Source: Acidobacteriota bacterium
GTDB taxonomy: Bacteria; Acidobacteriota; Thermoanaerobaculia; UBA5066; Gp7-AA6
Length of the DNA: 64,000 nt
NCBI GenBank assembly: GCA_020199905.1
Contig: JAIVJS010000071.1
Span: forward strand, 72,668-136,667
Reading direction: 5' to 3'
Shown piece by piece: positions 9,561 to 31,229 of the stretch. The translations under genes were made by a program, and so were the position numbers. How positions within the stretch are numbered: position 1 is the first letter of the stretch; each line of letters opens with the position of its first letter. The notes under the pieces were generated by a model, which saw only the letters and a program-made list of their open reading frames with translations, did no database searches and had not been told where the DNA came from.

Positions 9561-10931
9561 GTGGCGATGACCGCCGCCGCAAAGCTCGTCCTCGCGTGGC
9601 GGTTCCCCGGTTTTCTGACCGGCGATGACCTCGAGATCGTCCAGACCGCGGCGAAGTACGCCCTGGGGGTCGAGTACCACCCGTGGGAGCTTCGGTGCCT
9701 GTTCCACCCGCTCGCGCTCGTGTGGCCCGCCTTGAAGCTCGCGGCGATGGCGGGTGCGCGCGACCCCGCGCTCGTGACGTGGGTCTGCGCCCTTCCCAAC
9801 GTGGCGGTCTCTTCGGCGGGGATCGTGATCCTGTACGCCCTCGCGCGGCGGTGGGAGTGGCCGGTTCGCCCGGCTCTCGCCGCGGCGTTCCTGTACGCAT
9901 TCGCGTGGATGCCTCTGGCCTACGGCGCGACGCCGTATCCCCGGCCGATGTCGGCGACCGCGCTGATCGCCGCTTTCTGGTTCGCGAGCGCCCGGTCGGA
10001 GTCCGCCGGACCGCAGATCGCCGCCGGATTTCTCGCCGCGGCCGCGTTTGCGATCCGGTGGAGCGAGGGAGTCGTCCTGGTCCCGCTTCTGGCGTGGAGC
10101 GCCTGGAGATTCCGGAGCCCGCGGGGTGTGATCGGAATCGGGGCCGGCTTCGTCGCCGGGACGCTCGCCTGCGTCGGCCTCGTGGACCAGCTGACGTGGG
10201 GGGCTCCGTTTGCGAGTCTCAAGTCCTTCGTGCGGATCATGTGGCTGGAAATCCCGGCGGCCCGGCTCGCCATCGAGGAGCCGTTTCCCTGGTACCTGCG
10301 AACCCCGCTTCAGTGGGGGGGACCCATCCTTCTGCTCCTCGCGGTGGCGGGTTGGACGAACCGCCGCGGCCGCGCGCCTCTCGCCATTTCCCTCGCGATC
10401 GTGCTCGGAATGTCCCTCTTCGCCCACAAGGAGTGGAGGTATCTCCAGTGCGCGATTCCCTTCCTCTGCCTGGCCGCGGCGGCGGGATGGGAGCGCCTCT
10501 ACGAAGCCGGTCATCGGCGGCTCGCGGCGGGGGCGCTCCTGCTGTGCGTCCCCTATGCGGCGGACCGTTCCCTCGCGCTCCTGCGGGACAAGACGTCCGG
10601 AGAGATCGAGGCGTCGCGGCGGATCCTCGCGATGCGCCCCGCGCCGCGCGTTCTGGCGTTCGAGCAGATGTGGGCCTACGGCGAGCGCCTCTATTTCGGC
10701 AACGCCGTCGAAATCCGGGAGATCGAGCTGCACCGGCCCCTTCAGCCGGCCGCTATCCGAAAGGCGGCGACGGGAGCGGACGTCGTGGGCGTTTACTCCC
10801 TCCACCTCGATCGGGCGAGCCTTCGGGAGCTCGCGTCTCTTGGTTTTCGCCCCATCGTCAGCTTGAAGCGGGACACGTCGTACGAGTGCATGCTGTTTGG
10901 AAGACGGGAGGAGGCAGGCGGGAGGCGGTAG
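9561..10931 (+). CDS. GT22-like (ALG9/PIG-B type) membrane mannosyltransferase-like protein
   Basis: 456 residues with many hydrophobic segments, a GT-C membrane glycosyltransferase. The acidic pair of the first loop (TGDDLEIVQTAAKY) and the diagnostic GT22 motif FAHKEWRYLQCAIPF (HKExRF in eukaryotic ALG9/ALG12/PIG-B) are visible. Such enzymes move sugars from polyprenyl-phosphate donors to acceptors outside the cytoplasmic membrane; donor and acceptor here are unknown. The first usable start is GTG 9561, but hydrophobic sequence (LLLGALVAMTAAAK) begins earlier in frame, so a CTG at 9480 is possible. Its last codons (REEAGGRR-stop) lie inside a heptad repeat. Confidence 0.72.
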   Translation: MAMTAAAKLVLAWRFPGFLTGDDLEIVQTAAKYALGVEYHPWELRCLFHPLALVWPALKLAAMAGARDPALVTWVCALPNVAVSSAGIVILYALARRWEWPVRPALAAAFLYAFAWMPLAYGATPYPRPMSATALIAAFWFASARSESAGPQIAAGFLAAAAFAIRWSEGVVLVPLLAWSAWRFRSPRGVIGIGAGFVAGTLACVGLVDQLTWGAPFASLKSFVRIMWLEIPAARLAIEEPFPWYLRTPLQWGGPILLLLAVAGWTNRRGRAPLAISLAIVLGMSLFAHKEWRYLQCAIPFLCLAAAAGWERLYEAGHRRLAAGALLLCVPYAADRSLALLRDKTSGEIEASRRILAMRPAPRVLAFEQMWAYGERLYFGNAVEIREIELHRPLQPAAIRKAATGADVVGVYSLHLDRASLRELASLGFRPIVSLKRDTSYECMLFGRREEAGGRR

Positions 10932-28692: not shown

Positions 28693-30231
28693 CTAAGAGG
28701 GCTTTTTCGCGGGCGCCTTCGGCGCGGGCTTTCCGGCCGCGGCTTTTCGATCCGGCATGCTGCCGTCCGGCTTCAACACCACGAATTCCTCCTTGCGATC
28801 GACGCCCTTGAACGCGGCCGAATCGCGGGCGGCGTTCAAGTCGCGGACGTTCAGCGAAAACGTGTAATAGCCCGGCTCGAAAGACGCGAGCGGGATCTCG
28901 CTGCCGGTTCCGTAGTAGTCCGCACCGAGCGGCTGGAGCTCGGCGGGGCCGGAGAACGGCGCGAACGCGGGCTGACCTTCGCGAAGCACTCCGATGCGCG
29001 CCATGATTCTCGGCTTCGGGGCGTCCGCTGCGGGCGCGGGCGCGCCGGCGCCGGGAGCGGCCGGAGCCGGCGCCGCAACGCCCGCCGCCGCCTTCGGGTT
29101 GGTGACGGTATAGAAGTACCAGAGGCTCTCGTCCCGGGCGAACAGGCGGTTTCCCTTGGGGTCCACGCGGATCGGCTTCTCCATGCCGAAGACGAACGGA
29201 TCGGTCGGTGCGGGCCGCTTCGTCAACGGCGTCAGGGTGCTTGCGAGAATCAGCGGCGAGACTTCGAATTCCCCGGTCTTCGCATGAAGCTGGAAGCTCT
29301 CCGTTCCCGACGCGAGCGGCGTCGCCCCGTCGGACGTCACGAGCGCGAAAGTGCCGCGATAGCTTCCCGGTGGGAGAACGACCGAGCGTTCGTAGATCTT
29401 CTCCGTGCGGATTCCGGTCTTGACGTCCGTGAGCGTGGCGTCGTCCCAGAACGTCGCGACGTCCTGACCGGCGTCATTGGTGACGAGGCCGGCGAACTTC
29501 GCCGTCGCCGCCGGAGCCTTGTCGGCGGGGACCGAGAGCTCCAGGGCGTAGAAGGGGTCTCCCGGGATGCTCCGGAAGGGGCCTCCCCAGAAAGAGCCGC
29601 TGTCTTTCTTCTCCTTCGCGATGCCGTCCAGAAGTGATCGGGTCGCGGCCGGCAGCGCGGCCGCCGCGGGAGCCGGAGGCGCCGCCGCGGGCGCTGGCGC
29701 CCCGGTCGCGGCCGGAGGCACGGAGGGACGCACGGCGCCGGCGGCCGGCGGGGCAGGCGCGGCGCCGGCGGCCGGCGGAGCTGCCGGGGCGGCGCCGCCA
29801 GCGCCCGACGAAGGCGACGCGGCTCCGGCCGGATTCACGATCGACTTTTCCACCACCACGGCGATCGCTCGATTCACGACGTCCGGATTCTGAAGCTCGT
29901 CCGTGCCTCGCGAGGCGTCGACGTTTACCCGGGCCGAGAGATCTCCGACTCCCCACGACGGGTCGAACTTGTCCTTCGCGTAGATCCATGTCTGCGTGAC
30001 CGCGCCGGGCGACTGGGAACCGAATCCCGCGCCCGCGTCGGGCCGGGTATTCAGGCCGGCATCCCCCGTGACTCCGCCCGGGTCGCCCGGCCGCGAGGTC
30101 GACACGCGGCTCGGACCTCCGAGAACGATCAGGATGCGTCCGCGGGCCGACTCGGCGCCCCGCTGCCGGCGAAGCTTAAACTGAGAGTCGGCCGCGGCGA
30201 TCCGCCGCGCGATCTCGTCCTTGAAACGCAG
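28693..30231 (-). CDS. GWxTD-like domain protein with proline/alanine-rich linker; leaderless CTG start proposed
   Basis: 512 residues if started at CTG 30231. The N-terminus (LRFKDEIARRIAAADSQFKL, then RGRILIVLGGPSRVS) resembles the RGRIxIxLGxP core of acidobacterial GWxTD proteins, although GWxTD itself reads GAESA. A long Ala/Pro-rich linker (about residues 135-185) precedes beta-rich domains (PFYALELSVPADKAPA, SYRGTFALVTSDG, GYYTFSLNVRDLN) and a basic tail. No ATG, GTG or TTG exists between the in-frame stop before CTG and GTG 30105; starting at GTG would cut the conserved strand. A TAGAAT box 6 nt before CTG supports it. Function unknown. Confidence 0.6.
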   Translation of the reverse strand: MRFKDEIARRIAAADSQFKLRRQRGAESARGRILIVLGGPSRVSTSRPGDPGGVTGDAGLNTRPDAGAGFGSQSPGAVTQTWIYAKDKFDPSWGVGDLSARVNVDASRGTDELQNPDVVNRAIAVVVEKSIVNPAGAASPSSGAGGAAPAAPPAAGAAPAPPAAGAVRPSVPPAATGAPAPAAAPPAPAAAALPAATRSLLDGIAKEKKDSGSFWGGPFRSIPGDPFYALELSVPADKAPAATAKFAGLVTNDAGQDVATFWDDATLTDVKTGIRTEKIYERSVVLPPGSYRGTFALVTSDGATPLASGTESFQLHAKTGEFEVSPLILASTLTPLTKRPAPTDPFVFGMEKPIRVDPKGNRLFARDESLWYFYTVTNPKAAAGVAAPAPAAPGAGAPAPAADAPKPRIMARIGVLREGQPAFAPFSGPAELQPLGADYYGTGSEIPLASFEPGYYTFSLNVRDLNAARDSAAFKGVDRKEEFVVLKPDGSMPDRKAAAGKPAPKAPAKKPS

Positions 30232-30237
30232 CGGCGA

Positions 30238-30243
30238 ATTCTA
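30238..30243 (-). promoter_or_regulatory. -10 box (TAGAAT) exactly 6 nt before the proposed CTG start
   Basis: Minus strand GGGATAGAAT, then TCGCCG and CTG 30231. Same geometry as the leaderless candidates with ATG or GTG. Confidence 0.6.
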
Positions 30244-30299
30244 TCCCGTGAAAAGGGGAATCTCCGTCCCATGTGGCGAATGGTCTCGCCCGAGAGATC

Positions 30300-30327
30300 G
30301 GGAAACGGAAAACGGGAAACGGAAAAC
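30300..30327 (+). repeat. Heptad repeat gggaaac/ggaaaac, four units
   Basis: gggaaac, ggaaaac, gggaaac, ggaaaac in perfect tandem between the hspR 3' end and the GWxTD-like gene. Unlike most others it lies 66 nt from the nearest stop codon. The gggaaac unit recurs at 21796, 40455-40475 and 57490-57507. Confidence 0.8.
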
Positions 30328-30393
30328 GTCGCCGGACAGGAAGGGTTCAGCGCTGCGTTCGCGTGCCGCGAAGCACGCGCGAGACCCGAGCTT

Positions 30394-30777
30394 TCAGGGC
30401 TTCTGGACGCGGGCGAGCGCGAGACCGGCGGGGATCTTGGCGAGAGCGAACTTGCGGTCGGGCTCGGCGCGGCGGGAGACCGCCTCTTCGCGCAGGACGG
30501 TCAGGACGTTGTGGACGTCTCCCTGCATCTTCTGCATCCGTTCCTTCATGTGCAGGATGACTTCCACCCCGGCCAGGTTCACGCCGAGGTCCCGGGTCAG
30601 GGTCAGGATGATCTCGAGCCGCTCGATCGTGTCCGCGTCGTAGAGGCGGGTATTTCCTTCGGTGCGCGCGGGCCGCAGGAGACCCTCGCGCTCGTACATG
30701 CGCAGGGTCTGGGGGTGGATCCCGAATCGTTCGGAGATCACGCCGATGCGAAAGACTCCGGGGCGATTGGAGGTCAT
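30394..30777 (-). CDS. hspR: HspR, MerR-family heat-shock repressor
   Basis: 127 residues. MerR helix-turn-helix of the HspR type: RIGVISERFGIHPQTLRMYE, REGLLRPARTEGNTRLYDAD, then LTRDLGVNLAGVEVILHMKE forming the dimer helix. HspR binds HAIR inverted repeats (CTTGA-N11-TCAAG) and uses DnaK as co-repressor, releasing when DnaK is titrated by unfolded protein. A HAIR-spaced site lies in the dnaK promoter at 33280-33300, so the circuit is complete within this window. ATG 30777 overlaps the hsp20 stop as ATGA. Confidence 0.93.
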   Translation of the reverse strand: MTSNRPGVFRIGVISERFGIHPQTLRMYEREGLLRPARTEGNTRLYDADTIERLEIILTLTRDLGVNLAGVEVILHMKERMQKMQGDVHNVLTVLREEAVSRRAEPDRKFALAKIPAGLALARVQKP

Positions 30778-31229
30778 CGGAGGCTCTTGCGCGCGTCGAC
30801 GGGGATCGCCTGCCGCTTTTCCACCTTCGACGCGACGATTTTGAGAACGCCGTTGCGGAGGGTGGCCTTGATCGCGGACGGATCGATCGAGGAGGGCACG
30901 GGGAACTCGCGGGAAAACCGACCGTAGATCCGCTCCATTCGGACGAAATGACGGGGCTCGACTCCGGGATCGGTTCGCCGGTGCCCCGAGACTTTCAACT
31001 TCCCGTCCACGGATTCGAGACGCACGTCGTCCAGGCGGACGCCGGGGATCTCGATCTGAAGAGTGATCTCCTCCGCGTTCTCGAAGACGTCGGCGGCCGG
31101 AGACCAGAGCGCGGTTTCCATTCCCTCATCCGGAAACTCGGTTCGATGGATCGTGTCCTCGAAGAGCCGGTTCATCTTTTCCTGGATCGCGAATAGATCC
31201 TGGAGAGAGTTCCACTGAAAAACACTCAT
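30774..31229 (-). CDS. hsp20: Hsp20/alpha-crystallin small heat-shock protein
   Basis: ATP-independent holdase. 151 residues: short N-terminal arm (FQWNSLQDLFAIQEKMNRLF), alpha-crystallin domain (WSPAADVFENAEEITLQIEI, PGVRLDDVRLESVDGKLKVS, GRFSREFPVPSSIDPSAI, LRNGVLKIVASK) and a C-terminal IxI/V-type anchor (AIPV). It lies 75 bp after dnaK and is coupled to hspR. The upstream sequence holds two direct CTTGAC copies (about 31241-31266) which might be a second, weaker HspR site; this is tentative. Confidence 0.93.
   Translation of the reverse strand: MSVFQWNSLQDLFAIQEKMNRLFEDTIHRTEFPDEGMETALWSPAADVFENAEEITLQIEIPGVRLDDVRLESVDGKLKVSGHRRTDPGVEPRHFVRMERIYGRFSREFPVPSSIDPSAIKATLRNGVLKIVASKVEKRQAIPVDARKSLR

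Follow-up and report, generated by a model that had tools for sequence, protein, structure and literature searches.

Genes that have lost their 5′ part by deletion between short direct repeats are of a known kind. Leaderless bacterial genes carry an element of the form TANNNT about 12 nt before the start codon (Zheng et al. 2011, PMC3160421). They average 13.3% of genes in three Acidobacteria genomes, according to figures given in that survey. On leaderless mRNAs the codons GUG, UUG and CUG are reported to fall far short of the efficiency of AUG in E. coli, and a similar tendency is described for Caulobacter; GUG is reported to work better in some actinobacteria (PMC9031893). CTG starts do exist in bacteria and make up 0.7% of the mapped start codons in Caulobacter crescentus, as reported in PMC4117421. 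GWxTD domain proteins are represented by the NCBIfam model TIGR04514 (GWxTD_dom). A literature search on GWxTD gave no match.

The locus described here lies on the minus strand of a 64,000-nt stretch of DNA, the window (G000:C85:72668-136667, G000 being the window genome). It shares with the leaderless genes of PMC3160421 the position and the sequence of a -10-like element. It differs from them, as they are described there, in that the codon is CTG, not ATG or GTG, and in that the orthologues of the gene start earlier and have Shine-Dalgarno sites. The CTG starts of C. crescentus were mapped by experiment and need not be leaderless, whereas the window CTG is a prediction from sequence. With 5′-truncated genes that arose by short-repeat deletion the locus has in common a promoter fused to an internal codon and, in the genome G002 though not in G001, a short repeat at both matching places; unlike the others, it has a CTG that happens to sit at the predicted RNA start. 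The gene is most likely a 5′-truncated GWxTD-domain gene, in which a deletion of about 225–235 nt would have fused the promoter element TAGAAT to an internal codon, the CTG being an ordinary Leu codon. As such it adds one more case to a commonplace type of event. Coordinates are given in Table 1.

Table 1. Features of the truncated gene and its surroundings (window positions)
Feature	Position	Strand	Basis or remark
5′-truncated GWxTD-domain gene, most likely; without a standard start at its 5′ edge and without the ~70 N-terminal codons of the orthologues	28693..30240	-	ORF, TIGR04514, orthologue alignment
TAGAAT, -10-like element; GAAT is the proposed left deletion end	30238..30243	-	also before intact orthologues in G001 and G002
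CTG codon, most likely internal Leu	30229..30231	-	orthologue comparison
GTG, first standard start codon in frame; Val codon, GTA/GTC in two orthologues	30103..30105	-	
GGAGGT, Shine-Dalgarno-like, 9 nt before the GTG; may be coincidence	30115..30120	-	Gly-Gly codons of LGGPSRV motif
Four-heptamer array (CGGGAAA/CGGAAAA) between hspR and the truncated gene	30299..30326	.	neighbour
MerR-family regulator, HspR-like; lies next upstream in each of the three genomes of the family	30394..30777	-	NF047375 1.7e-27, below that model's cut-off
Hsp20 small heat-shock protein, within the conserved neighbourhood	30774..31229	-	gene order

The minus strand at the junction reads TAG AAT TCG CCG CTG CGT TTC AAG GAC; the sequence across the proposed deletion junction is TAGAATTCGCCGCTGCGTTTC. 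TAGAAT and the in-frame CTG are separated by exactly 6 nt, as the initial annotation had stated. The reading frame is open for 515 codons, and the in-frame stop that bounds it is the TAG of TAGAAT itself. No ATG, GTG or TTG occurs between this stop and the GTG at 30105, 42 codons past the CTG, which agrees with the same annotation. The top-scoring coding segment under a simple codon model begins at 30225, near the junction. The window protein has no match in Pfam. Its match to TIGR04514 scores 29.1 bits against a curated cut-off of 28 and is restricted to profile positions 47–104 of 105; the first 46 positions are thus absent and the GWxTD domain is incomplete. The protein further differs from GWxTD domain proteins in having no signal-peptide-like N-terminus.

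Two other genomes of the family, G001 and G002, both of other genera than the window genome, carry the gene behind dnaK, hsp20 and hspR, as in the window. Their orthologues begin about 70 codons upstream of the position of the window CTG, with ATG or GTG followed by AAA AAA and with a GGAGGG Shine-Dalgarno site just upstream. The same TAGAAT stands before these starts, which have TAGAATCCC(C)GGTTC-type sequence, TAGAATCCCGGGTTC or TAGAATCCCCGGTTC, just upstream; these bases are conspicuous because the rest of the intergenic region can hardly be aligned. Each orthologue opens with what looks by eye like a signal peptide (MKKALLAAAGLAFAAIAMAQ... and VKKILLAVAGIAFAASALAQ...), and the N-terminal part of the GWxTD domain comes next. 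In the window gene, homology to the orthologues sets in at TAGAAT or no more than a few codons from it (NSPLRFKDEIARRIAAADSQFK in the window, TSANEFRDEVGRRIAAADDQFK in G002). In G002, 234 nt separate TAGAAT from the aligned Ser codon, against 0 nt in the window; measured to the codons that precede a shared TTC, the interval is 235 nt for G001 and 9 nt for the window. Among 148 genomes of the class searched with the N-terminal query, 140 have matches; 149 of the 150 places listed begin at query residue 1–33, and only the window gene begins at residue 71.

The CTG is therefore most likely not an ancestral start, and would be a former internal Leu codon beside the deletion junction. The initial annotation had held the stretch RGRILIVLGGPSRV upstream of the GTG to be conserved, and it is present in both same-family orthologues. 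An ATG or GTG at the CTG codon, for which an alignment of orthologues had been proposed, is found in neither. The two observations named there as counter-evidence, orthologues that start at the GTG position and a sequence error that hides a standard start just upstream, are not what was seen; a loss of the N-terminal part, probably by deletion, was found instead.

This deletion would have removed the leader, the Shine-Dalgarno site, the start codon, the signal-peptide-like segment and the N-terminal half of the GWxTD domain. Its most economical route would be recombination or slippage between two short direct repeats that contain GAAT, one in the -10 element and the other at the Asn codon of an R-D-P-N motif. 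In G002, GAATCC occurs at exactly two places within L003:1201-1560, in the promoter (1257) and at the codons of D-P-N-P (1482), and these copies are 225 nt, or 75 codons, apart. Deletion between copies of this type would give TAG-AAT followed by in-frame coding sequence, as in the window. In G001 a second GAAT was not found within 300 nt of its TAGAAT, so that the repeat model draws on one orthologue, G002. In G002, as in the window, the promoter TAG shares the reading frame of the gene; an open frame from the TAG is thus expected after deletion and needs no selection. The ancestor and the junction are reconstructed across genera at about 45–60% protein identity. CTG would stand at the predicted 5′ end of the RNA by chance, and the exact leaderless geometry is a coincidence that the deletion model must accept. 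CTG makes up 3.45% of codons; ATG, GTG, TTG and CTG together make up 7.8%.

The remaining 515 codons contain no stops or frameshifts. The share of protein change that falls on the window lineage among the three genomes is 0.33 (bootstrap 95% 0.26–0.40), and the corresponding shares of the neighbours are 0.29 for hspR, 0.37 for hsp20 and 0.31 for dnaK. The undecayed state of the remnant indicates that the deletion is recent, or that the assembly is in error, or that the remnant is still used. Under the deletion model a recent event appears probable, and the remnant may be translated poorly or from an internal site only.

Genome-scale counts refer to the whole contig C85 and 80 kb of contig C66 (387 kb of G000), in which 295 coding frames were called with the simple codon model. 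TAGAAT occurs at 16 sites (773,872 nt over both strands), about once per 48 kb per strand. Fifteen of these sites, the window site included, are found at -3 to +75 nt relative to a coding onset on the same strand, which makes TAGAAT a believable promoter element. Because the hexamer is so rare, its occurrence exactly at the junction is best read as a retained promoter. The window copy is likewise believable as a -10 element, and RNA made from it would have its 5′ end at the CTG or close by. A consensus scan of 30180–30460 detected no -35 box.

TANNNT precedes 18 of 979 near-onset ATG, GTG and TTG codons at gap 6 and 14 of 979 at gap 7; about 0.55 per offset is expected from internal codons. 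Leaderless-type genes therefore look common in this genome, and the geometry of the window site does resemble that of leaderless candidates with standard starts, as first claimed. Over gaps 6 to 12 the element stands before 72 such codons (18, 14, 12, 9, 8, 7 and 4) in the two contigs. These contigs bear what appears to be a strong signature of leaderless or very short-leader transcripts, in line with the Acidobacteria average given in PMC3160421. Before near-onset CTG codons, TANNNT is found in 2 of 701 cases at gap 6 and in one at gap 7, against about 0.5 expected per offset. The two gap-6 cases are the window site and one site with ATG as the next codon. CTG is thus without a clear genome-level signal. 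Seven of the 295 called frames, the window gene included, lack ATG, GTG and TTG alike as far as 30 codons past the coding onset. The other six may reflect errors of the caller, truncation or unusual starts.

A remnant left by the deletion could be translated from the GTG at 30105, with GGAGGT as its ribosome-binding site, into a 470-residue C-terminal fragment. This start is compatible with the deletion and is probably the one that an automatic gene caller would report. In the two contigs, Shine-Dalgarno-like sites stand before some candidate start in 60 of the 295 called genes; they precede 67 of the 979 starts near a coding onset, compared with 156 of the 4068 internal ones. Yet GGAGGT encodes two Gly residues of a motif and the GTG is a Val codon (Table 1), so that both can be coincidental, and the codons from the junction to the GTG are conserved like the rest (60% identity to residues 71–120 of G002). 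A start at the GTG is unlikely, and would be at least as plausible as a start at the CUG.

The full gene may instead exist in the real genome, with about 230 nt dropped in the assembly. The assembly is a draft of 115 contigs, contig ends interrupt the gene in G001 and G002 as well, and the remnant looks undecayed. Those contig breaks fall, however, in other parts of the gene, and elsewhere in the draft the missing segment is found in paralogues only (C66, C101 and C27). At the matching ends, G002 shows a repeat of 6 nt and no other, and the words used by assemblers are usually far longer. An assembly artefact is rather improbable.

The initial annotation had proposed a leaderless mRNA that starts on the CTG codon. 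The promoter part of this proposal is supported: TAGAAT is believable and precedes both orthologues as well. The start-codon part is not, given where the orthologues start. Read as a statement on expression, translation from CUG is compatible with the deletion; it would give a cytosolic protein, and the gene would be a new allele formed by fusion of promoter and coding sequence. The 6-nt gap from a believable -10 element, the enrichment of leaderless geometry in the genome and its reported occurrence in Acidobacteria (PMC3160421), and 515 undecayed codons that evolve no faster than the neighbours fit this reading. No orthologue begins at the CTG position, however, and the gap-6 count for CTG shows no clear enrichment across the genome. 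CUG and the other non-AUG codons are reported to work much less well than AUG on leaderless mRNAs in E. coli (PMC9031893). In the fold predicted for the first 142 nt, which is unexceptional (z -1.55), the 5′ CUGCG is base-paired, and the product would be missing half of the GWxTD domain as well as the signal-peptide-like segment. Translation from CUG, if it takes place, is unlikely to be efficient, and that the truncated gene is expressed in this way is very doubtful. It is likewise hard to credit that a short-repeat deletion turned a secreted, Shine-Dalgarno-led gene into a leaderless gene for a CUG-translated cytosolic protein.

On the deletion model, a candidate for CUG initiation on leaderless mRNA is removed and its geometry is explained. 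The case is a caution: a non-standard codon at perfect -10 spacing can be the sign of a truncated gene. Should the remnant be expressed, the deletion would have turned a leadered gene into a leaderless one in a single step; if it is in fact read from the CUG on a leaderless mRNA, the locus would be a natural example of leaderless genes that arise in one step.

Three further explanations are rejected: pseudogene decay, by the absence of stops and a rate of evolution no faster than that of the neighbours; a frameshift, because the orthologous N-terminus, searched by tblastn in all frames of the whole window and of the 1.1 kb upstream, had no match above chance level among those listed; and relocation of the N-terminus, whose best match, G000:C27:10141-10356, lies in another GWxTD paralogue, one that has a start of its own and seems to be frameshifted.

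This paralogue (L032 9713-10341, minus strand, in G000:C27) starts with GTG AAA AGG and has at least two frame changes, near 10060 and 10000. It is either a decaying gene or affected by sequence errors.

The heptamer array upstream of the truncated gene was considered as a deletion end and rejected; it lies more than 50 nt from the junction and so is not directly at it. A literature search on heptanucleotide tandem repeats in Acidobacteria gave no match. Tandem arrays of the form (CGGGAAA/CGGAAAA)n are hugely expanded in G000, and some are near contig ends. The sequence CGGGAAACGGGAAACGG, with up to 2 mismatches, occurs at 374 places genome-wide, overlapping units counted apart, against 11 for a reversed-pattern control; 18 other genomes of the order have 0 to 18 places each. 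The arrays resemble the short tandemly repeated sequences of cyanobacteria.
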